A DNA stretch of 64,000 nucleotides from Platanthera guangdongensis (Eukaryota > Streptophyta > Magnoliopsida > Asparagales > Orchidaceae). This document shows, piece by piece, positions 11,448-64,000 of the stretch. The position numbers and the translations under genes are program-made. Location of the stretch: positions 75,640,346 through 75,704,345 of the forward strand of contig CM077157.1 in assembly GCA_039583875.1 (NCBI GenBank). Direction: 5' to 3'. The stretch's first letter is position 1. Each line of letters starts with the position of its first letter. The notes under the pieces were generated by a model, which did no database searches, was not told where the DNA came from, and was given only the letters and a program-made list of their open reading frames with translations.

Positions 11448-11712
11448 CATTCGACGAATTTTCCAGAGTTCGTCGAACGGGGTTCGACGAATTAGGGTAA
11501 GTTTGAGAGATTCTCGTCGACCGTAGATCGACGAATTCTCTGCGTGTGGAAACAACTTTCGTCGACCGGAGATCGACGAACTTTGCTTCAGAAGACATTT
11601 CATCGAATGGAGTTCGATGAACTATGTTCGATTCTTCTGGATGAGATCGACGAATTATTTGTCTACAATTTATTTCGTCGACCTCAGTTCGAAGAATTTT
11701 TCCTTTTTCGTG
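11448..11712. repeat. TTCGTCGA/TCGACGAA motif array in copia-1 spacer
   Basis: Between the RNase H stop and the extra ORF, short motifs such as TTCGACGAA, TTCGTCGA and ATCGACGAA recur in both orientations every 15-35 bases. The same class of motif fills the U3 of this element's own LTR (15018-15690). The array precedes a TATA-like sequence and the extra ORF start, so it may be a promoter region. Confidence 0.8.
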
Positions 11713-11746
11713 GAACGTAGTTTGTCGATTCATATTCTGGAAAACT

Positions 11747-11756
11747 TATATCTAGG
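11747..11756 (+). promoter_or_regulatory. Weak TATA-like box before copia-1 extra ORF
   Basis: TATATCTAGG lies downstream of the motif array and about 80 bases before the ATG at 11830. The clearer TATAAATA of copia-5 and TATATAAATA of copia-2 occupy the equivalent place. The following CTAGGCTTTCTTC resembles CTAGGTTTTCTTC in this element's LTR near 15680. Confidence 0.4.
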
Positions 11757-11829
11757 CTTTCTTCGACCTCCGTCCCACGCTTTCAGTTCTTTTGCTCTTG
11801 ATCGTCGTTTTTCTCTGTGTTTTTCCTAC

Positions 11830-14649
11830 ATGTCATCAATGGAGATTCCAACAAGCACGTTAGCAGCGATGAAGTTTGATACTGGGTTCGATATGGACTT
11901 CGATTCTTTTCAACATTCGGACCCCATCTTTCTATACATCTTGGAATTACTGGAAGAACTTAATCTAAAGGATTTCATGACCAGGCGCATTAAACTACAA
12001 GGAACTAAAATAAGAGAATGGGTTTATACATCTACAATTTCTGAAGAAGATGTTTTTACCGGCAATATAGGGAATACTGCTGTTTCCCTCTCTCCCGCGA
12101 TTCTGTCTGAGATTTTTGGATTAGTAAACGGAGCATATAATATGGAAATGGATTCTGAGGAATACAATGATATGTTGAAGCTAATAGGTTTTTCATGGAG
12201 CAACCCTAACAAACTGCTGAAGAAGCAACTGTCTGCTGCGTACCAATTTCTGGCAGATATTGTATGGAAAGTGCTAATGGGAAAGCACTCAGTGCATGAC
12301 TACATAACACAACATCAATTTCTGATCATGTGCGCAGTGGTGAACAAGCACTCTATAAATTGGGGTAAGGTCTTCTTTGAATTGATAAGGAAAAAGAACA
12401 GCAAGAAGGAAGTCTGCTTCAACAGAATTTTGGGAGTTTTTCTTCAAGAGAAGGCTGTTGAATGTATGGTCTCCCCGACCATCTTCATAAACGCCAGCAA
12501 GCGCCTTACGTGCGCTCTTTTTGGCAGATGGGAGAGGACTATTTCCAAACCCTCCAAGGGTTCTTCCTCTTCCATCCCACCTTCTGAGAGCACAAGGGTT
12601 ATAAAGGCCACTCCCCTCCCTGCTGAAGAGGTCCCTCCATCTCTTCCAACACCCCTTCCTCCACAGAAGCCTACTCATGTGTCTACCCAACCTTCATCTC
12701 CACCACTTGACATTACAAACATTCCATATTCCCCTCTGCAAGTTAATCAACAACCCACTCTTCCAGCTTCCCCTCATGAGACAACAATTCCTACACCTCC
12801 TTAGTCTCCTCTTCCCCCACACTTATCCACCATTCCATCTTACCACATACCCTCAGATACAATCATGCCAGATGCCCCCACTCCATCTATTATTCCTCCT
12901 CCCATTCCACCTTCTTCCCCCTCCCCATTTGATCCATCTACCATCATCTCCTTGCTCACTCCCCTCATAAAATCTCTCATCCAAGAGGCCATTACACCTC
13001 TTGTGACCTCCATCAATTCCTTATCTGCCCAAATCTCTCTTCTATCTGCTGTCCCCTCTTCATCTAGGGGCCTGGCTCCAGGTTCTCCTGAACCCAGGCA
13101 GGGGGAGATGCTTAGTGATGAAGTTGCAGCAGATATAGTTGCAGCAGTAGCAGCAGTCACAGCAGCAGTTCTCTCTCCAGCAGATGTAGATTCAGACGAG
13201 GATACAAAATTTTTGACAGATTTTGATTCTGAAATGATTGAGTTAATTCAATTTATGGATACTGACATTGATTTGGATGAGTCAGTTGAACAAATAACAC
13301 CTGTTGGTGATTTCTATTTAAAACCCACAGTGAATTTATCTGTTTTGTTGAGTAATTTTGACAATGCACATATACACTTCTTTCCAGCAGATTTTACTAA
13401 GCCAAGTTTGTCTATTGTACCTTATACCTCTCTAGCTAGTCCAGCAGTTGCTAAGCAACTCTGTGACAATCTTGCTCTCTCAGCTTCAGCCTCCATCTCA
13501 GCTTCTAGCCCAGAGGTCATTCCAGAAGATACTTCATTGCCAGTTTCAGCACCAGATTTTGTTATGGATGACTCTCCCCTGCCAGATTTGGATGAGCTTA
13601 TTCAGGCTGACATTGAAGAAGAAAACAGGATAGTAGCTGAATGCTCTGTCCCTATTGTTTCTGTTTCCTGTGCAGCTCCCTCCTCTCCTATTGCTGATAT
13701 TCCAGTTCCTGAACCTTCTGCCCCTCCTCCAGAAAAGGCAGTTATTTCTGATAAAGCTTTGAATGCTTTGGATGCTCTTTATGACATCCTTCAAGGTTCT
13801 GAGTCTGAAGAAGATGATGATGATGACTCAGATGAAGATGCTGCTACTAAGAAAAAGAAGATGCTTTCAAAGAAAAGAAAGGTTCCTCCTCCTCCAGCTC
13901 CAAAGCTTAATTCGAATGCTGACATCCCTTACTACATCCTGCATAATGTAACTCCATATAAGGGAATGCCTGCATGGATGTGGCTCTCAAAAAACCAGCA
14001 GAAAGATAGAAAGAGAAGTAGGAGATATTCTCCTCCTCCAGTGCACAAATACAGGAAGGATCCTCCTCCTCCTCCTCCAGCAGCTGGTGCCAGTGGCTCT
14101 AGCTCCTACAGATCTGCCCCAATGCAAACATACCAGAGACAGTCAGGGAGATTTTCTGGAAGCAGCCAGTAGAGGCCATCCTCCTCAGGAAGTCAAAGTC
14201 AACAGCATAAGCAGCAGCAGCAACAAATTTCTGATGTTCAAAAAGCTGAAAGTCCAAAGAGACCTCTCTCTCCTCCAATCCCTTTTAAAGATCCTGAAAC
14301 TGCTAATACAGCAAAAATGGCTAGATACCAGGAATTGATTGGATTATCTTTGATAAATAAAGCCAAGGCTGAAGGTAAAGATATCTCTGGATTATCAACC
14401 ATGTCAAAGTATAGAAAAGAAGAGCTGAAAAGGTTTGACAAAGGAAATAAATTGTTTAATGTTGATGATTATATGAAACTTCATCCAGAAGCAGTTGTCC
14501 CCAGAGCAACATCTTTGAATATTATTGGGGCAGCTGACATGACTATAACAATAGCTCAAGCTCGAGATCCAAAGAGAGAAATCATTTTCAAGAAGACAGG
14601 AGAGCAAACATCTGAAGACAAACCTCAGCAGAAGAAGCCAAAGAAGTAA
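11830..14649 (+). pseudogene. copia-1 extra ORF: nuclear-type protein with plant transposon-like domain
   Basis: A single frame of about 940 codons broken only by TAG codons at 12802 and 14170. Residues 1-245 resemble the 'putative plant transposon protein' domain (recognised by style, PF20167-like): SPAILSEIFGL, QFLADIVWKVL and INWGKVFFELI. The copia-2 and copia-5 extra ORFs have matching segments. A long Pro/Ser-rich middle follows, then an acidic stretch next to KKKKMLSKKRK (about residues 673-686), which looks like a nuclear localisation signal. A separate conserved-looking block (AKMARYQELIGLSLINKAK) lies near the end. I see no signal peptide or membrane segment, so an envelope role is unlikely. 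I chose the ATG at 11830 over 11617 because the upstream codons lie in the motif array. Confidence 0.8.
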
Positions 14650-14822: not shown

Positions 14823-14833
14823 TAGGGGGAGAT
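14823..14833 (+). promoter_or_regulatory. copia-1 polypurine tract
   Basis: TAGGGGGAGAT lies directly before the TGTTGG start of the 3' LTR. It would prime plus-strand DNA synthesis. copia-5 has the same tract at 30036-30049. Confidence 0.85.
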
Positions 14834-15017
14834 TGTTGGATCCCTAGTTGATTTGTGCTAGGTTCACTAACTTAGGATGTGACCCATCATGTATAGCCAG
14901 GGTCAAATTTGTGTCCTAGAGTCTAGGTCAAGTCCTTAGGCTCAACTCTAGATGGACCAGCTATCAACAAGACCATCAGAGACTTCAGACTTAGAGGATT
15001 TCAAGACCAAGTCAATT

Positions 15018-15690
15018 GAGTTCGACGTTCGTCGAACTCAGCTCGACGAAAGGAGTTCTGCGCTCGACGATCGTGAGATAATTCTTAGTGCTGAGCTCGA
15101 TGATCTGTGTTCTCTGTTCGACGAAGACTCAGCTTCTACATCAAGCCAAAGTCAGGAGAACTTCAAATTTTTCTAAGTCCAGCTTCAAGCTTTGGTCGAC
15201 GAATTGGATTCTAAGCTCGACGAACTTGGCCTAAAGTTCACAGCTTCTCAGGTCGTCAAAGTCAGCTTCTCAGGTCGACGAATGTTATACTCTACTCGAC
15301 GATTTCTGGACTCAGAGAATTTGTGTCGACACTTAGGGTTTGTGTCGATACCAAGATCGATTTGTGTCGACACCAGGATATCAGTCGACACCAGCTTATG
15401 TCGACACCAGAGGATTTATGTCGACACCAAGATCAATCTGTCGACACCAACTTATGTCGACACAGCATTTCAGCAGATGCAGAATATTTTGCCTAAGTCC
15501 AGAACTTTTCTCAGCAGAACGAATTTGATTCTCAGCTCGACGAATGAAGTCTGTCTGTTTGACGAATGAAGATTGTTTGGTCGACGAACTCCCTCAAGCT
15601 CAGCTCGATGAACTCAAGTTCAGCTCGATGAACACAAGTGCAGCTCGACAAATTATGTTCTTCATTCGACGAATCCAGACTAGGTTTTCT
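15018..15690. repeat. TCGACGAA and TGTCGACAC arrays in copia-1 LTR
   Basis: Motifs such as TTCGTCGAA, CTCGACGAA and GTCGACGAAT are repeated throughout. A block of TGTCGACACC copies lies within the array at about 15325-15465. This is the same TCGACGAA class as the spacer upstream of the extra ORF of the same element. Confidence 0.85.
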
Positions 15691-18394: not shown

Positions 18395-18404
18395 TATTTA
18401 TATA
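18395..18404 (-). promoter_or_regulatory. TATA-like box before copia-2 extra ORF
   Basis: TATATAAATA on the minus strand, between the motif arrays (18505-18910) and the extra ORF ATG at 18240. Together with the same arrangement in copia-5 it suggests a separate promoter for this ORF. Confidence 0.55.
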
Positions 18405-18504: not shown

Positions 18505-18910
18505 AGAAGACACGACAATCGTCGAACTGGGATCTACGATCCCCGGTTGTCTGAGTTCGACGAAGATCGTCGATCTGAGTTCGACGACAATCGTCGAACT
18601 GGGATCGATGTTTCCTGGCTGCCAGAGTTCGACGAAGATCGTCGATCTGAGTTCGACGACAATTGTCAAACTGGGATCGACGATTCTCGGCTGTCAGATC
18701 GACGAAGATCTCGAGTAGATAAGTCTTGGGAACTCGGGTAAGAATACAGAAGTACTCGAGTAGATGTATGGAAGTACTCGAGTAGGTCAATGATGTACTC
18801 GAGTAAGTGAAGTGGACTACTCGAGTATGACAGTTTGCTACTCGAGTATAGCATTCCACTACTCGAGTAGGTCATATACTTACTCGAGTATGTTGTTACT
18901 TACTCGAGTC
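18505..18910. repeat. Double motif array in copia-2 spacer: CTCGAG then TTCGTCGA
   Basis: Nearest pol, about nine copies of CTCGAG within TACTCGAGTA lie at 18715-18910. Nearer the extra ORF, ATCGTCGA and TTCGACGA motifs repeat at 18505-18720. The CTCGAG class also fills the U3 of the 5' LTR of this element. ORFs on both strands across this stretch are repeat artefacts. Confidence 0.85.
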
Positions 18911-24535: not shown

Positions 24536-24547
24536 GCTCTGATACCA
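24536..24547 (-). promoter_or_regulatory. copia-2 primer binding site
   Basis: TGGTATCAGAGC on the minus strand, two bases from the LTR end: the standard initiator tRNA-Met site of plant copia elements. Confidence 0.9.
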
Positions 24548-24691
24548 ATTGAAAGATAATAGTTGTCAACCTAAATCACCTAGATGGGTGTGAATAGTTG
24601 AGTTGTGCGTCTTTTTGCGGAATAAAAAAAATCTCGACCAAAGCACAGAACTATCTACCAAATAAGCAAACACAGACGAGGCAAGATTTAT

Positions 24692-25427: not shown

Positions 25428-25832
25428 TTACTCGAGTCAAGCAGAACTACTCGAGTATATGCAGCACTACTCGAGTAGGTAGAAAGGACTACTCGAGTAC
25501 ATGAGAAAACTTACTCGGGAGATAAAGAAATCATTACTCGAGTACATGGAGTCAACTACTCGAGTAAAAAAGATTGAGAGGGACTCAGTTACTCGAGTAA
25601 CAAAAATGACTTACTCGAGTACTTACACGAGAGGTGGAGTATATTACTTGAGTTCAAAAAGTACTACTCGAGTATATAAAAATGAACTACTCGAGTATAT
25701 CAGAAACTTACTCGAGACAAACACTTGGAAAAAATTCTGGAGCAGGAAAAATTGAACTACTCGAGTATGTAACATAGACTACTCGAGACAGAATGATCTA
25801 CTCAAGTATATAACATGAACTACTCGAGTAAA
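25428..25832. repeat. CTCGAG array in copia-2 LTR
   Basis: I count about 14 copies of CTCGAG, most inside the palindrome TACTCGAGTA, spaced roughly 20-45 bases apart. Decayed variants such as CTTGAG and CTCAAG are also present. Confidence 0.9.
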
Positions 25833-26421: not shown

Positions 26422-26870
26422 GTGTCGACACATAGACAAGTCTATGTCGACACAGAATAGTGGTGTCGACACTTCAGGAGAAAGGTGTCGACACATCTAG
26501 GAATGTGGTGTCGACACTTCAGAATGTTAGTGTCGACACATGTCAAGTAGGTGTCGACACATCCAATATGGTGTCGACACTTAAGTTTTACTCAGAATTT
26601 TTCTAAGTAAAGTCTCGACAATGTGTCGAGTTATGTTGTGTCGACACATAACCAAGTGTCGACACATAAAATCTGTTGACTAAACTTGTGTCGACACATA
26701 TGTGTCGAGACATTATAAGTCAGTGTCGACACTTGTTGCCAGTGTCGACACATTTTAAGCTAGCTGTCTCGCCTGTTCATCTTCAAAATCAGAAGGGTAT
26801 AAATAGGGTTCTGTCTTTATTTGTCGACACGCTTTCAAAGTTTCGAGACCAAAACTATTGTGTCGACACT
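26422..26870. repeat. TGTCGACAC array in copia-5 spacer
   Basis: About 15 copies of TGTCGACAC by eye in 450 bases after the RNase H stop, plus variants such as TGTCGAGAC. The 8-base core TGTCGACA is a perfect palindrome. The same motif fills the U3 of this element's 3' LTR. Confidence 0.92.
26798..26805 (+). promoter_or_regulatory. TATA-like box before copia-5 extra ORF
   Basis: TATAAATAGG near the end of the motif array, 106 bases before the extra ORF ATG at 26904. The LTR promoter of the same element uses the same TATAAATAGG at 31256. This is the best evidence in the window for an internal promoter. Confidence 0.65.
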
Positions 26871-26903: not shown

Positions 26904-29748
26904 ATGGCACCTAAGCTTGAGGAGAACGTTAACGAAGGCTATGAGCTTGTGCGCGGCGCGTTCGATGAAGCTGATCAAGAAATCAAGTCGGTGGTAACCC
27001 TAGTCGCCAATTCTGGACTAGAATACTTGGTTTCAGAACCAACAAAGATTTGGAAAAAGGAAGTTCTTGAATTCCTTAATGGAGCTGCTGTAGATGAATC
27101 TGGATACAGAATCAAATCCAGAGTTCATGGATCTAAGGTCAAGATTTCACCAAAAAGTCTGAGGAAGGTACTCCAGCTACCTAAAACACAAGATGAAGAA
27201 GAAGTAACTGCATCCAAGACCAGGGAAGCTCTTACCTGGTGTGGACTTGACCCAAAGATGAAGATAGGTTCTGTCTTTAACAGGAAAGGCATGAATAATC
27301 AAGGCAAGTTCATGTCTGAGATTGTGGGAAAAGTCTTACTCAGCAAACCTGGAGGGCATGACAGAGTGTCTGCCTATATGTTTGGAATTATGACTAGAAT
27401 CATATTCACTCTGAAAATAGACTGGTCAATAGTGGTTTTTGACAAGATCAAGGAGAGCTTGAAGAAGCCCAATCTGGGCAGGATAATCAGTCTCTACCTA
27501 GCTGGTACAATACCAGAGGTAATGAGTACAGCTGTCGGAATCAAGATCAACCACATGAGGAAGATGGATCAAAGGATATTTTCCAGATGGGACAGGGTGT
27601 TGTCAAAGGACATGCCAACCCCTGAGAAAACAATTACTGAGAAGGAGATTCCTCCTAAGAAAAAGAGAAAGACAGCTCCTGTGGTACAGGAGTCCTCCAG
27701 CAGTTCAGGGAGTGAAGAACAAGTTGTTTTCACTCCTGATGATTAAGAGTAAGTGGCTGCAGAGAAGACCCCTACTGCTCAAGATATAGCTGAGATCTAG
27801 GGGGAGCTGCCTCAAGCTAGCCCCATCCATAGGGATCACAGCCAGGGGGAGCTTCCAGGTGTAGAAGAACCCTCTACACTGGAGAGTGAACAAGCCACTA
27901 ACATCATACAAGAGGTACTCATTGACCTAAATACATTGAATTTTTCTATAACAGATTCTGATTTGTCTGATGTACATCAGCAAACTCAGCTAGACAGTCA
28001 AGTTCCAGATGTTGTTTTAGAAGACACATCTGCTGTAGTTCAAGATGATACTTCTCAAGTGGTTGAAGAACCAAGAACTTCTCCTGCATAGTCTCCACCT
28101 GAATATACAATGGAAGATTTGTTTCTAAATCTAGATCAAGAAGATTTTAACATGGACAAGGATGCTGCTGCTGAAGATAAGAGTGCTGCTGCTGAGGGGG
28201 AGCAACTGACCGTTCTGGAAGAGCCTTTAAGGCCAGAAAGTGAGAAAGCACCTGATGTGCAAGCTGACAAACCTCCAAGCCCTAAGGAAAGGGTTGAAAT
28301 AGCCAGCACTTCAGAATCTGAAGAAGATGAGGCTGCAAAGGCTAAGAAGAAGAAACTCTATGTCTTCAAGAGGAGAAGTCAGAGTTATAAGAAAGTCTTG
28401 CAATCCATTGCCCCACAGCCTATAGTTCAGCAAGCTCCAACTGCTGATTATAGTGCTTTAATGGTTGCACTACAGATCAAATTGGATGAGCAAAGAAAGG
28501 CAATTGAGACATATGTGGATGAAGGGCACAAGACCCTACAGTTTGATCTTGCACAAGATATAAAGTCTATAAGGTTTGAAATGAACCTTAACAAGAAAGA
28601 GATGACAGACTGCTTCCACAAGGGTGGCAATGCAGTGGTGTATCTGGCAACACACCAAGAGAAGATAAAAGTACAAGTAGATGATATAGCATTGAAGCAA
28701 GGATATGTGCTGGAAAACCAACTCAGAATGAATGACAATCTCACACAATCTCACAATGCTATAGTCACTGAATTGAAGAATAAGACTGTTGAACCTTCTA
28801 CATCTGCTGCTGTAGTTAAGGCTGACTTTGATAAAGTATTTCAAGCTGAGATTACTGCTGTCAAGAATGCAAATTCAAGATTCCCAGAAGGCCATCTCTG
28901 AACAGCTCACTAAGCTCAAACCTTACTTTAAAGATGGAATCAGGTACTTGGATAGTCAAATCAGATTCCAGAAGGATGATGTAAGAGATCATGTTGCCCA
29001 AGAAGTCATAAAGGGGGAGAGAGTATTAGTCAAAGCTAGCTCTGACCATGCCAAATGGATATCTAACTCCATCAGAGCTACACTGGGCTATCCTCCACTC
29101 TGTGATGATGATAATGTTGCTGAATCAGGGATTCAAACTGCATATCTTGGAGGTGAGCAACCAGAGGTAGCTCAAGTCATTTATCCACCTCCAGATTTTG
29201 AAATGATTCAAGCAGATGTGAGCACAATGTATAGCCCACTTGAGGGCAAGGACAATGTCCACATTGACAAGGTTGTTCAACCTATATCTGAAGCTATGCA
29301 AGAGGCTCTACAGAAAGAGGAAGAGACAAGGTTGTCCAAGAAGAGGTTTAGGGAACAAGTAGAACAAAAGCCCGATTTTGAACAGTGGAGCCCTACCTCT
29401 AGGAATATAATTTTAACTGCCTGGAAAGCTGCCAAGGACAATGCTCATGAAAGGAACAAGTGGTTCTCTGAAGCAGAATGGAGGAAACATGAAATAAGAC
29501 AGGAGGCCATTGTTCAATATAGAAGAAAGGCAAAGATGGGAAAGCTACCTCCTACTACAGTGGAGCCTAGCAAGTACTTTCCTAAGCCATACCACTATTT
29601 TGAAAGGCAGAAAATCAAAGCAGAAGAGCTGAAGAAGAAGGACTTAAAAGGCAAGAAGCCTGCTAATACTGACACTGCTGAAGCCCCTGTCAAAGCTCAA
29701 GTTCAAGCTGGCAAAGGCATAGTTATCAAAGAACCAGACCAGAAATAG
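26904..29748 (+). pseudogene. copia-5 extra ORF: nuclear-type, coiled-coil protein
   Basis: About 945 codons from the ATG at 26904 to the TAG that ends at 29748. Residues 1-235 form the domain shared with copia-1 and copia-2 (FMSEIVGKVLLSKP, FDKIKESLKKPNLGRIISL). Stops interrupt the frame near 27744, 27750, 27799 and 28090, and one frameshift lies near 28870-28900. A basic cluster, AKKKKLYVFKRRSQSYKK (about residues 478-495), looks like a nuclear localisation signal. The region after it is helical and charged, likely coiled coil (QIKLDEQRKAIETYVDEGHK). The C-terminus is Lys-rich. There is no signal peptide or membrane segment. The exact function is unknown. Confidence 0.8.
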
Positions 29749-30035: not shown

Positions 30036-30049
30036 AAATAGGGGGAGAT
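30036..30049 (+). promoter_or_regulatory. copia-5 polypurine tract
   Basis: AAATAGGGGGAGAT directly before TGTTGGG, identical in its core to copia-1. Confidence 0.87.
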
Positions 30050-30194
30050 TGTTGGGTACATTGGTCAAATGTACCTGATTTGAAGAAGCCTCACCCAACT
30101 CAATGATATACATCATAATGTATTTGATGTATGTTTGAGTTACTTGTGTAGGTTAAGAAAGTACTGGACTGAAGCAAAAAGTTTCTAAGTCCAT

Positions 30195-31100
30195 GTGTCG
30201 ACACCCAGAGGGATAGTGTCGACACTTAAGAAAGCTTGTGTCGACACCCAGACAAGCAGTGTCGACACTTGGAGTCATTGTGTCGACACCTGGGATGCAG
30301 AGTCGACACCAGATAGAAAGTGTCGACACTTGGAGCTGTGTCGACACTCAGTGAAGAAAAGTGCAGACAGAAAGTGTCGACACAAGGAGCTGTGTCGACA
30401 CCCAGTGAAGCTGTGTCTACACCAGAAAGTGTCGACACTTGGAGCTGTGTCGACACTCAGCAAAAGTCTGCAGAGACTAAGTATAAGTGTCGACACTCAA
30501 CACAATGTGTCGACACTAAGCAGAAGAGTTAGCATTTGAAGTAAGTGTCGACACCCAGCATAATGTGTCGACACTCAACAGAAGAGTCAGCACTTGAAGT
30601 ATGTGTCGACACCCAGAACAATATGTCGACACACAGCTGAAGACTCAACACTTGAAGAAAGTGTCGACACAAGGAGCTGTGTCGACACTTAGCAAAGAAT
30701 AGAATTATCTCCAAAATATTCTAAGTACAAGTGTCGACACTAAAGGAATGTGTCGACACTCAGCTGAAGTCTCAACAGAAGAATCAAGTGTCGACACAAG
30801 GAGCTGTGTCGACACTCAGCAAGAATCAACATTGAAGACTTGTGTCGACACCAAGAAGCAGTGTCGACACTTGACAGATTCAACACAAGAAGATGTGTCG
30901 ACACAAAGGAGATGTGTCGACACATAGAAGAATTCAGCAAAAGCTAGAAGAACAAGTACTTGTGTCGACACTCATTTTCAGTGTCGACACATGCAGAAGA
31001 ATCTGTGTCGAGACATACAAGGAAATGTGTCGAAACCTTGTAGACTTGTGTCGACACTTACACAACATGTGTCGACACTTGGACTATAAGTGTCGACACT
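30195..31100. repeat. TGTCGACAC array in copia-5 LTR
   Basis: I count about 32 copies of TGTCGACAC in 0.9 kb. Several come as pairs separated by AAGGAGCTG (18-base period), others at 20-40 bases. ORFs across the array on both strands follow from the repeat and are not genes. Confidence 0.93.
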
Positions 31101-31255: not shown

Positions 31256-31263
31256 TATAAATA
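31256..31263 (+). promoter_or_regulatory. TATA box of copia-5 LTR
   Basis: TATAAATAGG about 155 bases after the end of the motif array; the likely U3/R promoter core. Confidence 0.7.
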
Positions 31264-31985: not shown

Positions 31986-32160
31986 ATAAACCACTGTGTG
32001 TTGTGCTATGATTGTGCTGTGAATGTTGTGAATACTTTATCATTGCTGTGCAAAGTTAGAAATCTGTGATAATAAACTGTTTGCTGCCATTAAAGTAAAA
32101 TAAGGATTAGGTCACCTATTCACCCCCCCCCCTCTAGGTGTTTAGGTACCATATCTTTCA

Positions 32161-33502
32161 GATTCAGAATAAATCTGAACCCTTCTTCTCAGCCTGGTTC
32201 CAATGGCTGACTTCTTGGATGGAGCTCTCTCTCTCCAACTTCTTAGATCTTCACTTGATAGCTAGATCTTCTTTGAATTACTTGAACAACAATCTGAACT
32301 TGAGTTCAATTGATCTCTTCAACAACAGTTTCTGTAGACTGTATAAGCCTATTTATAGGCCTTCTTCATGGTAACCGGCTGGTCCGGTCCATAACTGATT
32401 TCTGACAGCTCTGACATGTGCTGTAGACCGGCTGGAAGGGCAGCTGTCAAGTCATCCAGTCAGTTCTTGAAAATTCTGTAACTGTCTAGAAAGTGTCGAG
32501 ACTTTCTGTCTTTAAGTGTCGACACTTATAGACCAAGTGTCGACACATGTTGTCTAAGTGTCGACACTAGCCTATAAGGTGTCGACACAACTTCTTGTGT
32601 TGTAGATTTTATATCTCGACACTACTTCTTCTTCATGTGTCGACACTGAAATTGAGTGTCGACACAAGTACTTGTACTTCAGTATTTTGCTGAATTTTTC
32701 TAAGTGTCGACACAACACCTTTGTGTCGACACATCTTCATGAGTTGAATCTATTAAGTGTCGACACTTCTTCTGGGTGTCGACACATGTCTTCAGTGTTG
32801 ATACTTGTTGAGTGTCGACACAGCTCCTTGTGTCGACACATTCTTCTTCTGTCAAGACTCTGGCTGAGTGTCAACACATTCCCTTAGTGTCGACACTTGT
32901 GCTTAGAATATTTTTGTTGAACTTTGCTGATCTGTACTAAGTGTCGACACAGCTCCTTGTGTCGACACTTTCTTCAAGTGTTGAGTCTTCAGCTGAGTGT
33001 CGACACATTATTTCTTGTGTCGACACTTTCTTCAAGTGTTGACTCTTCTGTTGTGTGTCGACACATTGTTCTGAGTGTCGACACTTTCACTTAGTCTCTG
33101 CTGACTTTTGCTGAGTGTCGACACAGCCTCCAAGTGTCGACACTTTCTGGTGTAGACACAGTTTCACTGGGTGTCGACACAACTGCTATGTGTCGACACT
33201 GCTTCACTGCACTTTTCTTCATTGAGTGTCGACACAGCTCCTTGTGTCGACACTTTCTGTCTGGTGTCGACTCAACATCCCTGGTGTCGACACAATGACT
33301 CCAAGTATCGACACAAGTCTTCTTAAGTGTCGGCACTTTCCCTCTGGGTGTCGATACATGGACTTAGAAACTTTTTCTTCTTTCCTGCAAATACTTAACC
33401 TGCACAAGTAAACTCAAAACACATCAAATACATTTTGATGTATATCATTGAGTTGGGTGAGCCTTCTTCAAATCAGGTATATTTGAACCAATGTACCCAA
33501 CA
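32161..33502 (-). repeat. LTR Y: minus-strand LTR part, same family as copia-5
   Basis: The reverse complement starts TGTTGGGTACATTGG at 33502 and follows the copia-5 LTR through the TGTCGACAC array (about 33365-32515), a TATAAATA box at 32357-32350 and the R region. It then stops at 32161, equivalent to about 31490 in the copia-5 LTR. The missing inner part was split off by the copia-5 insertion. It is either a solo LTR or the 5' LTR of a minus-strand element inserted in the copia-6 gag; AATTG at 33503-33507 is a possible target duplication. Confidence 0.82.
32350..32357 (-). promoter_or_regulatory. TATA box of LTR Y
   Basis: TATAAATA on the minus strand, at the place equivalent to the copia-5 LTR box. 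Confidence 0.6.
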
Positions 33503-34199
33503 AATTGATTCTAAATGACTTATTTGTTCAAGAGCATTCTTTAAATCTTCTTTGAGTGTTATATTTTCAGAAGATACCTTATTTAATTTCTCTTTGAGAA
33601 ATTTTTTTTTCTTCTCAGATTGAATTAAGTCTTTACATAATAATTTAAACTCAATTTTAAATTCTTCTAATGAAAGATCAAGGGTAGATATTACCTGATC
33701 TTATTCTGATTCACATTCTGATTCTTCATCAGAGTTGCTGCAGGAGGCATTTATTGCCATTAGGCAAAATTCTCTTGCTCTTGACTCTTCTTCATCATCA
33801 GTTGTGCAAGATGAAGCTTCAGAGTCACTCCAGGTTTCAACATCAATTATTTTTCTTTAGCTAATTCAGTAGCCATTGCTGTGAGGGAGTCCCACATATC
33901 TTTTGCAGATAAACATTCAGCAATTTTCAAAAAAATGTCATCAAACATTGATTGTGCAAGAATGTTCATTACTTGTGCATCAACAATCTTCAGTCTTTTC
34001 TGGGCATCTGTCCATTGAGATGATGGAACAGCCTTGGGACTTGTTGTTTCCTGAGGTTGAGCTGGACCTGATAAGATGGAGTTGAAAATGCTTTCATCAA
34101 TGGAGTTCATATAAAACCTAATCCTTATCTTCCATGATGCAAGCTTATTTAGATTGCACATAGGTAGTCTGGTGCTTGAAAATGTTCATTTTGTGTCAT
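33503..34199 (-). pseudogene. gag: copia-6 gag, internally deleted
   Basis: Starts with an ATG at 34199, with a frameshift a few codons in. It then has LCNLNK-type gag sequence (CNLNKLASWKIRIRFYMNS) matching copia-1 CNLNKFAIWKARIRLYMNF. After residue 115 or so (ATELAKEK, 33850) it jumps to the acidic ETWSDSEASS segment, which in copia-1 lies after the zinc knuckle. Roughly 650-700 bases including the knuckle are therefore missing. The rest (33700-33510) encodes a Lys/Glu-rich likely coiled coil, cut by LTR Y. Confidence 0.8.
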
Positions 34200-34286: not shown

Positions 34287-34288
34287 AT

Positions 34289-35554
34289 TGAAAGTTGGGG
34301 GGATAGATCTTAACTAGCACTAATTAGAGATATATGTATATATATAACTATAAAGAGCAGAAGATCACAGCACAAAAAAAATAAAGAAAGAGAGCAAGCA
34401 ACCAGAAGACACAAGGATTTTATAGTGGTTCCCCAACCTGGGTACATCCACTCTTCTATCACCCTGGTAGGAATCCACTCAGAGTTTTGATCAGGTGCAT
34501 GACACCAATGAGCTTTTGATCAGGTGCTCAAAAACCAAACCTTAAGTCTTTTGGCCAGGTGACTTGCAACCAGGAATAACTTTTGAAGGGAGTTATAACT
34601 CTGTACACAGGAAAGAGAAAGAAGTGATGTTGTCTTCTCTTTCTTAATATACAACTAAGAAGACTTTAGTGGATGTTGATGTTAGCAAAGGCTCCCCCTG
34701 AGATGTTGAATGGTTCAGGAAAAACTGGAGCTTTGCTTTAGGGTGATAGACCTTCAGATTGATGATGTCTCCAGCAAGCTTCTTAAACTGATATGAATAT
34801 ATGTCTCTTGAAAAGCCTGGAGCAGATGGAGAACTCTGATGAATATGTTGATTGTTGCAGAGTTCCTCCTTCTCTGTAAAAGGAAAAGCCTTCACTGTAT
34901 CTCTACACACTGTTGTGCTCTGTGTGTCTCTATATATTTCTATCTGTGAATCTCTTATATGTCCAATTCCAACATTTGAATTTCATTTCTCTTGATAACG
35001 GATGAAGCATTCCCGATAGTAGAATATGCTTTGGGAATTTATCCTGAATTAACTCCTGAAACAGCACATGTTTAATGCAGCATTTGAACGGTTATTTCCA
35101 TATTAACTGTAATTAATTCTTGAGTTGATCTGCCAACTGTAAATAAATAGGCCTAGAATAACTGCACAGAATTCGCCGACCTGAGCTCGCAGATCGTCGA
35201 GCTCAGCTTCTATTTCGTCGACCTGGAAATCTGTCTTGAACTAATCTCAGCGATCGTCGACCTGAACATGGAGTTCGTCGAGCTCAGCTGGATTTCGTCG
35301 AGCTGAACTTCTTGCTTGAGTTCAGAGTTCGTCGTCCTGAGTTCAGAGAAGGAACTCATAATTCATCGACCTGAGTTCGACGTTCATCTAACTGAGTTCG
35401 ACTATCGTCGAACTGATTTTCTGACAACTGCATTTCTTGGAACTCTTCTGAGGTAAATCTGGAAATAAACCTATGACTCATGACTATACATTTTGGGTCA
35501 ATCTAAGTAAACCTAATAGTGATCCTTGCCCAAATCATAACTGGGTTTCCAACA
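34289..35554 (-). repeat. copia-6 5' LTR
   Basis: 1266 bp, reverse complement TGTTGGAAACC...CTTTCA. The U3 has TTCGTCGA and ATCGTCGA motifs at 35420-35165. A weak TATTTATT lies near 35145 on the minus strand, and the shared hairpin at 34452-34424. Confidence 0.85.
34424..34452 (-). other. Conserved LTR hairpin (copia-6)
   Basis: On the minus strand AGTGGATGTACCCA, loop, GGGGAACCACT: the same arms as copia-1. Confidence 0.6.
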
Positions 35555-41963: not shown

Positions 41964-41964
<1 letters not shown>

Positions 41965-53832: not shown

Positions 53833-53840
53833 TATTTATA
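53833..53840 (-). promoter_or_regulatory. TATA box for aORF2
   Basis: TATAAATAGG on the minus strand, 58 bases before the first possible ATG (53775) and about 100 before the second (53730). It suggests a dedicated antisense promoter. Confidence 0.6.
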
Positions 53841-54403
53841 GAAAACGAAATCTGGGGTCAAGCTGTCCAATCGGACCAGCTCGCCGTCCCAGCTCGCCAA
53901 CCCCCAACTCGCCGACTTCCGACGTAATCCATCCCAAGCCAAGATAAATAAAAAGCAATATACTTATTATTTGAATACCACGCATCTAAGAATGTTTTGA
54001 ATTACTTATTACAGCAATGAAGTGCAGGAATAAGAAAACAGGGTACGCGGGCAGGGGGGAACCAGGAGGCGAGTGCCGGTCGGCTCGGCAAGGGAGCCGC
54101 CTTCTATCTACCCCGGCCTCGCATTCCCCGCCCCCCAGACTACCGCGCGTGGAGAATCTCGCGGATCCTCCCCAAATTCTTCTACGCCACTGAGAGGCCG
54201 TCGTTGATCTAATCTAGAAGCCAGGAAGGGGCGTCACCTCACTAGCCTGGCCGCTTCGCACCTCGTCAGCGAGACATACATAGTCGCGTTGTAACGACTC
54301 ATTGACTTCTTGCACCTCGCGCAGCCCGCACACAAGTTTCTTGAAAAGCTTGACCCCCCCCCCCCCCCCCCCCTCGTCAGCTCGCCTTGCTCCACTTCGG
54401 GGC
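53841..54403. other. Non-coding stretch between antisense genes, with C20 tract
   Basis: A run of 20 C at 54354-54373 (G20 on the antisense strand). No coding signal recognised. The GC-rich flanks resemble the rest of the element. Confidence 0.6.
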
Positions 54404-55167: not shown

Positions 55168-55220
55168 CTCAGCAGGGATAAAGCAAACAGAATGGCAAGA
55201 GTCAGGCAGGTATGCAGGTG

Positions 55221-55230
55221 TATATATATA
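55221..55230 (-). promoter_or_regulatory. TATA-like box for aORF1
   Basis: TATATATATA, 54 bases before the aORF1 ATG on the minus strand. Confidence 0.5.
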
Positions 55231-55324
55231 GCCGCAGGTGGACCCCACCCGAAGATTCTCTCCGGTCTACCCCATACTCGCCAAACACTTGGGGTTGGAT
55301 GTTTCTTTCTGAGCTTTGCCAAGC

Positions 55325-55343
55325 TCAAAAAGAGCGTGGATTG
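55325..55343 (+). promoter_or_regulatory. gypsy-2 putative polypurine tract
   Basis: Purine-rich AAAAAGAGCGTGGA just before the right LTR start at 55344; a plausible plus-strand primer. Confidence 0.5.
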
Positions 55344-56084
55344 TGTACAACCCCGTATCCGGCGTGTGAGGTCGCCAGGAACCAGACTGGCCGGTTCAGA
55401 TCATCCAGGCAACAAGCGAGCTCGACAGGGAAATCTGAAAGCAGCAGGCGAGCTCGGCAGGGAAATCTAAAGGCCGAGCTCGTCATTCGTCGACCCCAAG
55501 CTCGGAATTTGCCGAGCTAGGCCCGTGCTTCGTCGAGCTGAGCTCGACTAATGAAGACAGATCGAAGGTCGAGCACAATAGCCAGCTCGTACTCGCCCTA
55601 TGGAGCTCGGCAAACAGCAGGCGAGCAGGATCTTCAGGATTAACCGAGCTCGCCCAGGTCTCTGAGGTACTTTTTACTATTTTGCCCCCGCTGGCCTGCC
55701 CATAGCCTTTCAGAACAGCGGAGTTACACTGTTGGCAGACCAACCTAGACTGCACATAGCCGTTCAGGATAGTGGAGGTTGGCTATTTGCAGGCCATTTT
55801 CAGAATTCTATAAATAGGAATAGAGGGGTACCTCAGAAAGCAGGCTTCCTGTGTTCTCTTGCTCCGTCTCTCAAGCGCTTTCTGAGGATACCTTAGTTGG
55901 GCGTTTGGATAAGGAGGGGAAGCACTCTAAGATCTTCCGGGTGTGTGGTGGGTCCTCCCCACCGAGCCCTTGGGTCAGTTTTTCCTTGTTTCACTTATTA
56001 TTTTTCTTGCAGGAGCGAAGTAGGTGCGCGGTCACCCCTTCCCCAATGGTGAACTCCACAAGAGACCAATTTTCAGTTTCAACA
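55344..56084 (+). repeat. gypsy-2 right LTR
   Basis: 741 bp, TGTACAACCCC to TTTCAACA, aligning with the left LTR from end to end. The right AACTG follows at 56085. Confidence 0.93.
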
Positions 56085-56532
56085 AACTGCATAGTGGTCA
56101 AATTGAGAAGTGACCATGGCACAAAATTCCAATCTGGGTCCATGACAAAAGTTCTATGAAGAACTTGGTATCACCCAGGAATTCTCTTCTCCTAGAACCC
56201 CACAACAAAATGGGGCAGTTAAGAGAAAAACTAGGACTTTGATTGAGGCTGACAGAACCATGATGAGTGATTCCTCACTTTTAGAATATTTTTGGGCTGA
56301 GGCAATCAACACTGTATGTCATGTTCTGAATAGTGCTTAATCAATAAAGTCTATGGAAAGACAACCTATGGACTCATGAAGGGCAGAAAACTAACTATTT
56401 CATATTTTTGAATCTTTGGGTGTAAATATTTCATTTTAAATAATGAAAAGTCACATTTGATTAAGTTTGCTGAAAAATGCTCTATGAGAATACTTGTTGG
56501 ATACAACTCCCATAGTAGAGCATATAGGGTAT
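56085..56532 (+). pseudogene. pol: copia-3 integrase, right part
   Basis: Continues the frame cut at 39697: VVKLRSDHGTKFQSG, then frameshifted SPRTPQQNGAV and FWAEAINTVC-type sequence and the TTYGLMKGRK linker. Broken by several stops and shifts. It ends where the copia-4 LTR starts; GGTAT at 56528-56532 could be the copia-4 target site. Confidence 0.88.
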
Positions 56533-56655
56533 TGTTGAGTACATTGGTCTCAATGTACTTGATTTGAAGAAGTCTTCTCAGCTCAATGATATACGCATTG
56601 TTGTATTTGATGGATGTTAAGTTCATATATGCAGGTAATTAAAGCTAAGTACAAG

Positions 56656-57150
56656 TGTCGAGACACTCAAGACTAGTGTCGACATACTTAAGCTAGAAGT
56701 GCTGAGTCAAGGTGAAAGTTATGTCAACACTCAGGACTTGCGACAACACTGTGATACAATAAAGTAACTGTGTCGACACTCAGGACTAGTGTCAACATAC
56801 ACTGAACAAGTTGTGTCGAGACAAAGAAAAGCTGTGTCGACACTAAGGACAACTTTGTCGGCATACTATGTCGCGACTAAAGACAACTGTATCGACACTC
56901 AGGACTAGTGTCGACACACTCTATACACATTGCATCAAGTCTGAAGACAACTGTGTCGACACTCAGGACTATTGTCGACACACTATAATAAAACTGTAAT
57001 GAGACTGAAGACAACTGTGTCGACACATTACACAGAAGTTGTGTCGAGAAAAGTTGAAGAGCTTTGTCGACACATTCAGAAGTGTGTCAACACCACTATA
57101 GGAGCTGTGTCGACACCCAAGACTTATGTCAACACATTTCACAGCCAAGT
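56656..57150. repeat. TGTCGACAC array in copia-4 LTR
   Basis: Copies of TGTCGACAC with TGTCGAGAC and TGTCAACAC variants; many show CG to CA or TG changes, as expected from deamination of methylated CG. Confidence 0.88.
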
Positions 57151-57261
57151 CTCAACACTTCAGCAGACTATTTCCTAAGTATAGATATCAAGACGGAGGT
57201 ACTGACAGCTATCAGAACTATCACTTATTAACCAGATCAGCCGGTTACTCCTGTCAAAGCC

Positions 57262-57269
57262 TATTTAAA
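57262..57269 (+). promoter_or_regulatory. TATA-like box of copia-4 LTR
   Basis: TATTTAAAGG about 110 bases after the motif array, at the place of TATAAATAGG in copia-5. Confidence 0.5.
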
Positions 57270-57951
57270 GGGATGCAGCCTTCAGAGAGAAAAAAGAGAT
57301 AGAGAAAAATATAAACAATACAGAGGAGCAACAACAGAATTTTAAGAAGAAAGAAGTTTGCATCTTCAGCTACAATTTAGAAGGTGGAGAGAGGTCTGAT
57401 CAAGAATCATCTTCAACATCTCTCCAGCTAGATCAACCCTAATTTCTACTTCAAGAAGCTTTGAAAAGCTAAAAAGGGTTTGATCAGATCTATCTTATCA
57501 GAATCAAAGGAAGCACAATCATCAAGATCAGATCAAGAAGTTGTTACTCAAATCTCATATTGGGTGACATTTTCTGATTCAATTTTCTGTTATATTCAAT
57601 TTGTAAGATCTACTTGTTGATCTGAGTGGAGGAGATTTATTCTCTTGTTATTATAAGCCTGTGTTATAAAGGCTGATGTTGGGCTAGGATTGCCGGAGGT
57701 AGGAGAAGTTGGAAATTCTCTGAGTTGTAAGGCATTTGTTATCTGAGAAGTAGGAGTGAGGATTCATTTTGAGGAAGAGTTCTTGGGAAGAACTTGAGGT
57801 GTAGGATCTTGGTGATATGAGTGATAAGACTTATGAAGTTTGAGTTGTGGGAGCCAGGTCGGCTCTGAGGTGTAAGATCTAAAGATCTGAGTAAAGGAAA
57901 GAGGAGGAGTTTGGCCGAATCTAGTTCATTGCTAGATAGGCGAAGGGGGAA

Positions 57952-57982
57952 AGTGGTTGTACCCATAAATTAGGGAACCACT
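57952..57982 (+). other. Conserved LTR hairpin (copia-4)
   Basis: AGTGGTTGTACCCA, loop, AGGGAACCACT. The outer and inner arms are kept although the loop differs. Confidence 0.6.
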
Positions 57983-58189
57983 ATAAATCTGTGTGCATTA
58001 TGTTGTGTGTGCTGATTTGTTATGCTGTGTTAATTCTGTTAATTGTTGTTTAGTTTATGTTAATTATCTGACTGAGTAAATCACTTTATTTAAAGTAGTA
58101 TTCTGACAACAGAAAAGGAGAGCCATAATTAAATTGGACCTATTCACCCCCTCTAGGTCATTTTCAATCATAAAGTAAACATTTACAAT

Positions 58190-58201
58190 TGGTATCAGAG
58201 C
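58190..58201 (+). promoter_or_regulatory. copia-4 primer binding site
   Basis: TGGTATCAGAGC, two bases after the LTR: initiator tRNA-Met type. Confidence 0.93.
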
Positions 58202-60529: not shown

Positions 60530-60531
60530 AT

Positions 60532-63500
60532 TTGTGTTTGCAGGTGGAGCCAAGTACCACTAATAGGCCAATATGGTACTTGGATAGTGAATGTTACAGG
60601 TATATGATTGGATCAAGGAGTTTACTAAGAGACTACACTCCAGTTAAGAATGGACCAAAAGTCATCTTTGGAGGGTCAGAGAAAGGACTCACCAAGGGAT
60701 ATGATAACATTTCTAATGGCCTAGTTATCATCACTAAAGTTGCTTATGTGGAACGATTGAACCACAATCTGATAAGCATAAGTCATCTTTGTGATATAGG
60801 ATATGAAATTGTCTTCCACAATGACAAGTGTTTGATAAGGAAATCAAGTGATCAAGTGATCATCTTATCAGACACTAGGAGTGGGAACATTTATTTTCTA
60901 AATTTCCTTAGTATAAATGAACAATCGCTAGTATGTCTTGTAGATAGTGAGAAAGGCACTCTGTGTGTACAGTGGCATAAGAGGCTGGCTCACTTAAACT
61001 ACAAAGAAATGAGTAAACTATTTTCTTTTGACTTAGAAATAGTTCACAACTAAAATGATCCAAAGAAGGCATATGTTCTGCATGTCAAAAATGCAAACAA
61101 ACAAAAGTCACCTTTAAGAGCATTCAGTCCAAAGACACTGAGAGGTGTTTGTACTTACTTCATATGAATCTATTTGGTCCTATTCAAGTTCTTAATTTGT
61201 GAAGGAAGTCTTATACCTATGTAATTGTAGATGATCACTCCAGGTTTGCTTGGGTGTTCTTCTTAAGAAGAAAGTCTGAAATACTAGATATCCTTGCTGA
61301 TTTTGTCAAACAAATTCAGAATGAGATGGGATGTACTGTGGTTAAACTTAGAAGTGACCATGGTACAAAATTTCAATCTGAAAGGATGGCAAATTTCTAT
61401 AAGGAACTAGGAATTCTTCAGGAGTTCACTTCTCTAAGAACACCACAACAAAATGGAGTTGCTGAGAGGAAAACAAGAACTCTTATTGAGGTAGCTAGAA
61501 CAATGCTTAGTGGTACATCTCTCCCTGAATATTTTTGGGCTGAGGCTGTAAACACAGCATGCTATGTTCAAAATAGAGCTTTGATCAACAAGTATCACAA
61601 CAAGACTCCCTATGAACTCATGAAAGGCAGAAAACCAAATCTGTGCTACTTCAGAATTTTTGGAAGTAAGTGTTATGTCTTGGACAATGGGAAAACTTAT
61701 CTAACCAAGTTCTCAAAGAAATCCTATGAAGGAATCTTTGTAGGGTGTAGTCTTCATAGCAAAGCATACATGATCTACAACTTGAAACATCAAGTTATAG
61801 AAGAATCTATTAATGTAGTATTTGATGAATCATCTGTTTTATGTAATGATATCTTTAACAACGCTAGTCTAGGTGTTGTAAAGTCTAGAATGATAAAACT
61901 AAATATAAGTGACTCGCCTAACATAGAGTTAAACATTAGAAACAATATAGAAGTTCCTGTAGAAGATACTGCTTCAGCTCAGGGGGAGGAAGAGAATCAC
62001 CCTAATCCTCCTGCAGCACTAGGTGATAATAGACACCTTCCTGTAGCTGTTAGACACCTTAGAGATCATCCTATAGATCAAATAATAGGTGATGCCAGAT
62101 TAAGTGTGACTACTAGAAGTATAGATCATAATGAGGTTCTATACTCTAGTTTTCTCTCATAAGTAGATCCTAAAAGGTTTGAAGATGCCAATTCAGATCC
62201 CAACTGGATTTTTGCTATGCAAGAAGAGTTAAATCAATTTGAGAGATGCAAAGTCTGGTGTCTAGTTCCTAGACCTAGTGATCACAATATCATAGGAACT
62301 AAGTGGATCTATAGAAATTAATTAGATGAGTATGAGGTTATAGTTAAGAACAAAGCTAGATTAGTGGTAAAGGATATAAACAAGAGGAAGGATTAGATTA
62401 TGTCCAAACCTTTACACCTGTAGCTAGGCTAGAAGCCATTAGATTATTTTTAGCCCATGCAGCATTTAAAGGATACAAGGTCTACCAAATGGATGTAAAG
62501 TCAACATTCCTAAATGATACACTGAAGGAAGAAGTCTATATTGACCAGCCACCAGGTTTTGTTGACCCTAAACACAAAAACTACGTTTTCAGATTACACA
62601 AGGCTTTGTATGGGTTAAAACAGGCACCTAGAGATTGATATGAGACCCTCTCTACCTTTCTTATATAGAGTAAGTTCTCTAGAGGAAAGATAGACAAGAC
62701 ACTATTCCTTAGGAACATTAAAGGTTCAAGCATCTTTGTCCAGATTTATGTAGATGTCATAATTTTTGGGTCTACCAATGAGATGTTGTGTAGCAAATTT
62801 GCAAGGCTTATGCAAGACAAGTTTGAAATGAGCAACATGGGCGAGCTAAAATTCTTCTTGGGATTCCAGGTTAGACAATCTGAGGATGGAATATTCATCT
62901 CTTAATCTAAGTACACTAAGGAGTTGATTAAGAGATATGGGATGGAGAATTCTTCTACCATGAGAAATCCAATGGGTTCTACAGTATCACTATACAAGGA
63001 TGAATCTGGACAACCAGTTGATGAAACCTTGTATAGAGACATCATTGGATCACTCATGTATTTAACTGCTAGTAGGCCAGATATTATGTTCTCAACATGT
63101 GTCTTTGCTAGGTACCAAGCATGCCCTAAAGAGTCTCATTATATGCTGTTAAGAGAATACTGAGATATCTTAAGGGCACACACAATCTTGGGATTTGGTA
63201 TCCTAGGGATAGTGATTTTGAACTTACTGGGTACACAGATGCAGATTTTGTAGGATTTAAAGAAGACAGAAAAAGTACTTTTGGAACTTGCCAGTTTCTA
63301 GGGAAAGACTTATCAGTTGGAGTAGCAAGAAGCAAACAAGTGTTACTATCTCTACAACAGAATCAGAGTACATATCTGCTGGAAGTTGTTGTGCACAGCT
63401 GTTATGGATTCAACAGTAACTACTGGACTATAATATTCAGCTAACTAAATCTATTATGTTTTGTGATTCTACTAGTGCAATTTCTATTGCCAATAATTTT

Positions 63501-63688
63501 GTTTCTCATAGTAGAACTAAACATATTGAAATTAGATATCACTTTCTCTGAGAGAATGCAGAAAAAAAAATATTAGCTTACAACATATTCCAACTAAAAC
63601 ACAAGTTGTTGATATTTTTACAAAGCCCCTAGATGAAAGTAAGTTCAATTATTTTAAATTTGAACTAAGCATGTTCAATATTGAATAA
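60532..63688 (+). pseudogene. pol: copia-4 protease, integrase, RT and RNase H
   Basis: The protease motif reads DSECYRYM, so the Gly after Asp-Ser and other residues have changed. Integrase: WHKRLAH, then a break near 61052, then the core with RSDHGTKF and VAERKTRT (61254-62162). [13 protein letters not shown] is kept, but YVDV stands where YVDD is expected (about 62748). RNase H: TGYTDADFVG and STFGTCQFLG, then a frameshift near 63305. The end is set by FNIE and TAA at 63686. It is inactive. Confidence 0.88.
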
Positions 63689-64000
63689 ATAATTACACTT
63701 ACAAGGATGATTAATTGGGAATACATATATATTTTAAAATTTTACTTTAATTAAACAAGAAATATTAGTCAGAACACAAAATTTATCTAAGTCAAAGAAT
63801 TGTGTCGAGACAGCAGAGTGTGTGTCGACATTATTAGTACAGGTGTGTCGAGACACCACAGTGTGTGTCGACACTAGTAGAAAAGGTGTGTCGAGACACG
63901 TGACTGTATGTCAACACTGATTAGCGGATGTGTGTCGACACTGATAAGAGGATGTGTGTCGAGACATTACAAGTTTGTGTCGAGACCTTTAGATCTGTGT
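63689..64000 (+). repeat. copia-4 post-pol spacer with TGTCGACAC/TGTCGAGAC array
   Basis: After an AT-rich stretch to 63800 the motifs TGTCGAGAC and TGTCGACAC alternate up to the window edge. It is the same class as the copia-4 LTR, and at the same place as the copia-5 spacer array. No ORF follows inside the window. Confidence 0.85.

Follow-up and report, generated by a model that had tools for sequence, protein, structure and literature searches.

Matching palindrome arrays before the long terminal repeat promoter and a candidate internal promoter of orchid Sireviruses, and a possible VANC-like product of their envelope-like gene

Why should a retrotransposon carry arrays of the same short palindrome both in its long terminal repeats (LTRs) and in the spacer ahead of its extra gene? 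The question is raised by a 64-kb stretch of the orchid Platanthera guangdongensis (GenBank assembly GCA_039583875.1, contig CM077157.1, positions 75,640,346 to 75,704,345; hereafter the window), in which self-comparison resolves several partial copia elements, here called copia-1 to copia-5. These are Sireviruses, since they carry exact copies of the junction between LTR and primer-binding site (PBS), CAATTGGTATCAGAGC, at three places, and of the polypurine tract (PPT) with the attachment site of a 3' LTR, AGGGGGAGATTG, at two (Table 1). They encode gag, Pol_BBD and integrase domains of the copia type. An envelope-like (ENV-like) open reading frame (ORF) follows pol in many Sireviruses, though not in all, and in the window it survives as pieces at 11830-14172 and 26904-29748 and as remnants at 18061-17526. 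An initial annotation of the window held that one motif class fills both the U3 part of the LTR and the spacer before this extra ORF, in four of four elements, and that the two regions co-evolve for one binding factor. Our analysis suggests that each element likely has two promoters of similar build. That the extra ORF encodes the factor which binds both is a reasonable but unproven proposal.

The palindromes fall into classes that we call A (TGTCGACA), A2 (TGTCGAGACA), B (CTCGAG) and C (TCGTCGA/TCGACGA), and their counts were tested against 300 dinucleotide shuffles of each region. The arrays lie where the initial annotation had placed them, and two more LTRs conform, the inverted one of copia-5 type (26 A) and one of copia-1 type (6 C). 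The class that it named occurs 3 to 32 times per array, against a shuffle mean below 1, and none of the 300 shuffles reaches these counts; single A2 copies in the copia-5 spacer and LTR, by contrast, are equalled by 2/300 and 6/300. Motif density is thus well above that of shuffled sequence, and pol is nearly empty: scoring of ten regions, coding or from the 3' half of an LTR, turned up a single copy, a CTCGAG in copia-2 pol, which is what chance would give. In a nested element and in the left flank, CTCGAG occurs 4 and 2 times, respectively, and class C 3 times, counts at chance level or close to it.

The match of class within an element is looser than 'four of four' implies. The stated class is present in each LTR and each spacer. 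However, the copia-2 spacer has as many class C copies (10) as class B (9), and the copia-1 LTR carries six A beside eleven C. Moreover, pol end and LTR start place copia-4 and copia-5 in a single clade, so the window offers three independent cases rather than four. When whole k-mer profiles are compared (k = 6, 7 and 8), the true combination of LTRs and spacers comes out on top of all 24 possible ones, with a p of about 0.04, the minimum attainable with four elements; taken individually, the copia-1 and copia-4 LTRs are each nearest to the copia-5 spacer. Strict helical phasing is not claimed, because the steps between exact copies spread across half a helical turn (56 of 94 steps of at most 60 bp measure 18-23 bp, and none is shorter).

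Contrary to the initial annotation, which knew of no such system in SIRE-type elements, the pattern was published in 2010 (PMC2829016), and the window elements are therefore new members of a known pattern. According to that report, a Sirevirus may hold as many as 32 palindromes, located in the LTRs and upstream of ENV, with one consensus per element and CpG islands at both sites. Copies in the linker before ENV were found in 9/9 ENV-bearing elements with the motifs and in 0/4 ENV-less ones, and 13 of the 21 Sireviruses studied bore motifs. The published and present arrays agree in several respects: a family-specific palindrome occurs in high copy number both in the linker and in the LTR's upper half, and in the LTR a TATA box lies behind the array. 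They differ in that the published motifs, Tnd-1 excepted, have a CGG-CCG core (PMC2829016), whereas the cores here are GTCGAC, CTCGAG and TCGWCGA. We do not count the CGG-CCG core as defining, because Tnd-1 lacks it and only 13/21 Sireviruses have the motifs at all. In the orchid elements, furthermore, two classes may share one region, the copia-5 type has its CpG strongly concentrated in the motifs, and two clades as well as copia-2 have a TATA box behind the spacer array.

To follow the pairing of classes beyond the window, part of the host genome was sampled. The PPT-junction word AGGGGGAGATTGTTGG occurs 64,732 times in its 4.25 Gb, its reversed control once. From 100 places listed, 40 PPT-anchored elements were used; 20 were picked for diversity from the first 30 after their LTR motifs had been seen, and the next 20 were consecutive and unselected. 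Scoring covered 1300 bp of the U3 of each element together with an upstream spacer stretch of 2.1 kb (-4500 to -2400), and an array was required to have at least five copies of A, B or C. By this measure 32/40 elements have a U3 array and 24 of those 32 a spacer array too, and the dominant class is identical in 24/24 (A in 10, C in 12, B in 2). The chosen set contributes 13 of these elements and the unselected one 11. Both the pol end and the start of the extra ORF were located in 20 of them, the pol end only in L032 and L087, and neither in L030 and L047. The eight elements outside the 32 comprise four members of a group that we term clade D, L028 and L035 (no class), L105 (two A in U3, twelve in the spacer) and L031 (four C in U3), whose upstream stretch overlaps an adjacent inverted element.

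The check on relatives that the initial annotation had called for thus favours it in the identity of classes and disappoints it in the quarter of U3-array elements (8/32) that have no spacer array. Its idea of two regulatory regions with one binding factor fits the 24/24 agreement, the conservation of the motifs between two LTRs, the absence of any sign of block copying in classes A and C and the TATA boxes described below. 'Co-evolve' fares less well: the 24 elements represent only four clades by LTR start (copia-2 stands apart), and clade D does not repeat its LTR array in the spacer. With so few independent cases, co-switching of LTR and spacer class is supported but not proven. Block duplication from LTR to spacer was considered and is unsupported for classes A and C, in which no longer words are common to an element's own LTR and spacer than within the family. 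The two class B elements have slightly longer words in common with their own spacers.

Clade D, a real exception to exact agreement of LTR and spacer, has 11 members among the 40 (L042, L044, L045, L049, L075, L077, L079, L083, L099, L107 and L111). Their U3 holds a complex long palindrome built on GATTCTCGnCGA, with 9-15 copies of CGAGAATC. In seven of the 11 examined closely, the stretch before the ORF carries 4-10 copies of a shared core, YCGHCGA, above dinucleotide shuffles strongly in six (0/200) and weakly in one (10/200). By LTR start, clade D clusters with the class B elements L032 and L087 and with L028, which means that motif class changes among related LTRs.

Constraint on the motifs themselves is suggested by the only pair of LTRs whose arrays could be aligned. 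The two copia-5-type LTRs of the window are identical at 235/240 motif positions as compared with 934/1087 others (Fisher 3.9e-9), a count that excludes 24 gapped motif positions and that an aligner favouring motifs may inflate. In three ungapped blocks, agreement is 0.99-1.00 within motifs and 0.81-0.85 elsewhere; a fourth block, free of motifs, agrees at 0.91. The arrays of the copia-1 LTR and of a second LTR of that type (LTR-C) could not be aligned, although the LTR ends align, so this pair gives no result on conservation.

CpG is also concentrated in the motifs, the copia-5-type U3 giving the cleanest case. Coding parts have nearly lost the dinucleotide: copia-1 gag-pol retains 4 CpG, an observed/expected ratio (o/e) of 0.02, copia-4 stands at 0.05, and copia-3 and copia-5 are likewise depleted, while copia-2 pol retains 0.45. 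Against the 0.02 of its gag-pol, the copia-1 spacer array reaches 2.14. In the copia-5 U3, 33/35 CpGs lie inside motifs, leaving 2 outside where 32 would be expected. Ratios outside motifs, with decayed motif copies counted as outside, are 0.06 in the copia-5-type U3, 0.14 in the inverted LTR of that type, 0.23 in the copia-2 LTR array, 0.42 in both the copia-2 spacer and the copia-4 LTR, 0.49 in the copia-5 spacer, 0.75 in LTR-C, 0.87 in the copia-4 spacer and 1.29 in the copia-1 spacer. Confinement of CpG to the motifs is firm only in the copia-5-type U3. Among sampled elements, the U3 outside motifs has 0.27 (class A), 0.30 (B) and 0.33 (C), and the region near the pol end 0.02, 0.61 and 0.22. 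Regional protection, as in a CpG island, was rejected as the entire cause on the strength of the copia-5-type U3, which is nearly without CpG outside its motifs; the other arrays are less clear.

A second promoter before the extra ORF was suspected by Bousios et al., who could not conclusively identify it (PMC2829016). In the window, a strong TATA box (score of at least 10) lies within 200 bp behind 5/9 arrays as compared with 3% of random places, two of the five, the copia-5 LTR and its inverted counterpart, being homologous. Within that distance, no strong box follows the copia-1 LTR, the copia-1 spacer or LTR-C, and that of the copia-4 LTR is weak. Among sampled relatives, 17/27 have a TATA box at most 230 bp before the match to the extra ORF (16 at 99-115 bp, one at 176), namely 11/11 class A elements and 6/6 of the L038 clade; in the 21 elements for which a pol end was located as well as an extra-ORF match, 7% of other stretches have one. 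In the clades possessing it, this pre-ORF TATA box is a candidate for the suspected internal promoter.

What might read the palindromes? The N-terminal parts of the copia-1 and copia-5 extra ORFs, which resemble PF20167, are both predicted to adopt a fold distantly similar to that of VANC21, an anti-silencing protein of the VANDAL transposons. VANC21 is reported to bind arrays of short motifs in the non-coding DNA of its own element, where CG methylation is then lost (PMC5735166, PMC10398659). In copia-1, the same frame reopens past a stop at 12865-14172; the copia-2 remnants are similar to the copia-5 ORF. The closest named relatives of these ORFs are from Platanthera orchids. As regards a membrane-spanning segment such as a retroviral-type envelope would have, peak hydropathy over 19 residues stays below 1.6 in the three copia-5 pieces and reaches 1.95 in the second copia-1 piece and 1.74 in the protein P0001. 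The copia-5 N-terminal part, the only one searched, has no viral fold match at E 0.001, and viral contigs gave 14 exact matches to the PBS junction but no relatives in a protein-anchored scan. Several proteins matching the extra ORF, among them P0003, P0008, P0025 and P0059, also contain the copia reverse transcriptase domain PF07727 (gene models of Platanthera and Tanacetum).

These data suggest the following scheme, to which we assign a probability of about 0.42. Each element would have two promoters of similar build. In the LTR U3, a palindrome array would precede the promoter; between pol and the extra ORF, an array of the same palindrome would precede, in several clades, a TATA box and then the ORF start. 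In each element family, a single sequence-specific factor would bind the palindromes, placing genomic RNA and extra-ORF mRNA under a shared signal. The likeliest factor would be the product of the 'envelope-like' ORF itself, whose predicted VANC21-like domain may target arrays such as GTGTCGACAC, TACTCGAGTA and TCGACGAA. We infer that the internal promoter is transcribed and that the ORF product binds DNA and may affect methylation, so that the element would carry its own array-binding, anti-silencing activator and a change of family specificity would require array and protein to shift together. The loose VANC parallel drawn in the initial annotation gains unexpected structural support from the predicted fold. 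Put more boldly, the Sirevirus 'envelope-like' gene would encode no envelope but a VANC-type anti-silencing factor, aimed at palindromes before the LTR and its own promoter that switch with the protein; in this form we regard the proposal as possible but less likely than not.

Comparison with known systems shows how far the parallel extends. VANC (PDB 9lnj) and the extra-ORF product are both element-encoded, perhaps similar in fold as predicted for the latter, and both associated with fast-changing, family-specific arrays of short motifs in the element's own non-coding DNA (PMC5735166, PMC10398659). VANDALs, however, are Mutator-like DNA transposons and not copia retrotransposons; VANC has DUF1985 and DUF287, whereas the extra ORF is weakly PF20167-like; and VANC21 motifs are reported to form same-orientation arrays (PMC5735166, PMC10398659), whereas those here are mostly palindromic. 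A sunflower Athila element has a 3' extra ORF, one of the group that is discussed as envelope-like, with partial similarity to PF20167 (Transposase_32) and predicted nuclear localisation; the element differs in being of Ty3 type, and the available portion of that report mentions no array (PMC11728184).

Several observations weigh against the proposed scheme. The resemblance of fold is remote (Foldseek E values of 0.019 and 0.11; TM-score 0.32-0.39), its Z falls in a range possibly reflecting mere common arrangement, and the two matching models are homologous proteins with overlapping alignments. Comparison by profile matched a few chains, none of them VANC21, and Pfam listed neither DUF1985 nor DUF287 in 10 proteins scanned at E up to 10, a scan in which the HMMER filters discard most matches above about 0.1. 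The N domain of copia-1 is not basic (isoelectric point 6.2, as against 9.5 in copia-5). Eight of the 32 elements with a U3 array have fewer than five spacer copies, namely seven of clade D (0-2) and L097, which sets 18 A in its U3 against a mixed spacer (three A, two A2, four C); clade D spacer stretches hold 0-1 copies of CGAGAATC. A second, private LTR class also exists: A in copia-1-type elements and GAGCTC in the L038 clade. By the same pattern, a pre-ORF TATA box is found in 0/4 copia-1-type and 0/5 clade D elements and not in L097. The class A U3 has more CpG outside its motifs (0.27) than the pol end has (0.02), so the excess is partly regional. Finally, 4/13 motif-bearing Sireviruses are reported to be ENV-less yet to have motifs in their LTRs (PMC2829016); an agent other than the element's own ORF product must act there. 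As a separate observation, the LTRs of L038, L051, L093, L095, L103 and L113 carry 9-14 GAGCTCA words, which contain no CpG, besides class C, and these are not among the top words of the spacers.

A reading that retains both promoters would make the palindromes sites for host transcription factors, stress-responsive ones for example, and leave the extra ORF to another role. The ENV-less elements with LTR motifs and the private LTR classes speak for it, as does the layout of array and TATA box, seen at LTR and spacer in copia-5 and copia-2 and, in two of the sampled clades, ahead of the ORF; a search of PLACE with other Sirevirus motifs is reported to have returned mainly sites of stress-related factors (PMC2829016). 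It leaves the VANC21-like predicted fold unexplained, and class differences from clade to clade within one host genome would be odd for a single set of factors. We consider it quite possible, though short of an even chance.

That the arrays are functionless, having grown like satellites by slippage in non-coding DNA and matching through common ancestry, appears unlikely. They are repetitive and variable in copy number, and those of copia-1 and LTR-C resist alignment, unlike the ends of the same LTRs. Against this stand motifs conserved above their flanks in the sole alignable LTR pair, CpG concentrated within them, shared words that in classes A and C are no longer within an element than within its family, the position of arrays directly ahead of an ORF, with TATA in two clades, and the same plan in distant plants (PMC2829016). 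Least probable of all is action as RNA, through hairpins or pairing between copies that feed small RNAs or packaging: five arrays folded gave very stable predictions (z -3.7 to -16.4) and maize Sirevirus LTR palindromes were reported as small-RNA hotspots in a 2016 study (as cited by PMC5311732 and PMC10760457), but such z-scores do not tell the readings apart, since stable folding is expected of every array of palindromes. In six arrays, the motif units that carry two changes number 15, which is few, and none of them stays palindromic, so that no compensatory pairs are seen.

Table 1. Positions of arrays, junctions, candidate TATA boxes and extra-ORF domains in the window (copy numbers by motif class; fractions are shuffles reaching the count)
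Feature	Position	Strand	Remarks
copia-1 pre-ORF spacer array, class C	11451..11681	+	9 C (shuffle mean 0.73), 0/300; several copies as inverted pairs; decayed copies to ~11735
copia-1 extra ORF, N-terminal part	11830..12804	+	PF20167-like (below cutoff); VANC21-like predicted fold
copia-1 PPT and attachment site	14824..14835	+	exact AGGGGGAGATTG; 3' LTR from ~14834
copia-1 3' LTR U3 array	15028..15673	+	11 C, 6 A (A cluster 15324-15462); 0/300 each
TATA behind copia-2 spacer array	18395..18402	-	ATG at ~18240 follows
copia-2 pre-ORF spacer	18519..18908	-	CTCGAG array 18908-18710, then class C block; 9 B, 10 C; 0/300
copia-2 LTR/PBS junction	24536..24551	-	exact CAATTGGTATCAGAGC
copia-2 5' LTR U3 array, class B	25431..25828	-	14 B; 0/300
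copia-5 pre-ORF spacer array, class A	26423..26750	+	15 A; 0/300; more copies at 26822, 26861
TATA behind copia-5 spacer array	26798..26805	+	106 bp ahead of extra-ORF ATG
copia-5 extra ORF, N-terminal part	26904..27746	+	PF20167-like; VANC21-like predicted fold
copia-5 PPT and attachment site	30040..30051	+	exact AGGGGGAGATTG; 3' LTR from ~30050
copia-5 3' LTR U3 array, class A	30196..31098	+	32 A; 0/300
TATA behind copia-5 LTR array	31256..31263	+	
second copia-5-type LTR, inverted	32157..33503	-	26 A, TATA box; 80.6% identity to 30049-31490
copia-1-type LTR (LTR-C)	34290..35500 (approx.)	-	6 C, array 35411-35194; PBS junction 34275-34290
copia-4 5' LTR	~56532-58187	+	PBS junction 58186-58201; element runs past window end
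copia-4 5' LTR U3 array, A and A2	56655..57115	+	9 A, 2 A2; 0/300
copia-4 post-pol spacer array, A and A2	63803..64000	+	3 A, 4 A2; 0/300; ends with window

The remaining layout of the window is complex. The 5' LTR of copia-2 is apparently truncated at ~25880, where copia-5 starts, and at 30050-33503 two LTRs of the same family nearly abut in opposite orientation. A nested LTR element at 39696-56082, with LTRs of 739-741 bp that are ~89% identical, appears to interrupt copia-3, whose pol matches copia-4 on either side of it. This element contains a 4 kb tandem duplication (41969-50023, 96% identity) followed by a 72-bp tandem repeat (49994-51157). Directly upstream of copia-1 gag, at 6401-7000, lie GC-rich repeats of ~102 bp with the words TGTCGACAC, TTCGTCGA and ACACGCCCGTGT; ACACGG-like words are also the top words of the L031 U3, so these repeats may be the U3 of a different family.

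The regulatory array, then, is known, and what may be new is a retrotransposon counterpart of VANC, a possibility open to direct testing. As far as the literature was searched, it is the predicted VANC-like fold above all that is new, together with the TCGA-type cores, the concentration of CpG in motifs, the conservation of the motifs, the exceptional clade and the TATA box that two clades have before the ORF; the open-licence PMC literature yielded no link of VANC or DUF1985 to retrotransposon extra ORFs and no Sirevirus internal promoter. The function of the ENV-like gene in plant retroelements was described as not experimentally proven in 2010 (PMC2829016) and still as unknown in 2024 (PMC11728184). 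With a VANC-like predicted fold and family-specific arrays at both promoters, it becomes a simple question of binding and methylation. If the proposal is true, proteins of the same kind would be encoded by the PF20167 extra ORFs found in other LTR retrotransposons of plants, and self-encoded, sequence-specific anti-silencing would extend beyond the VANDAL DNA transposons to very abundant plant retrotransposons.

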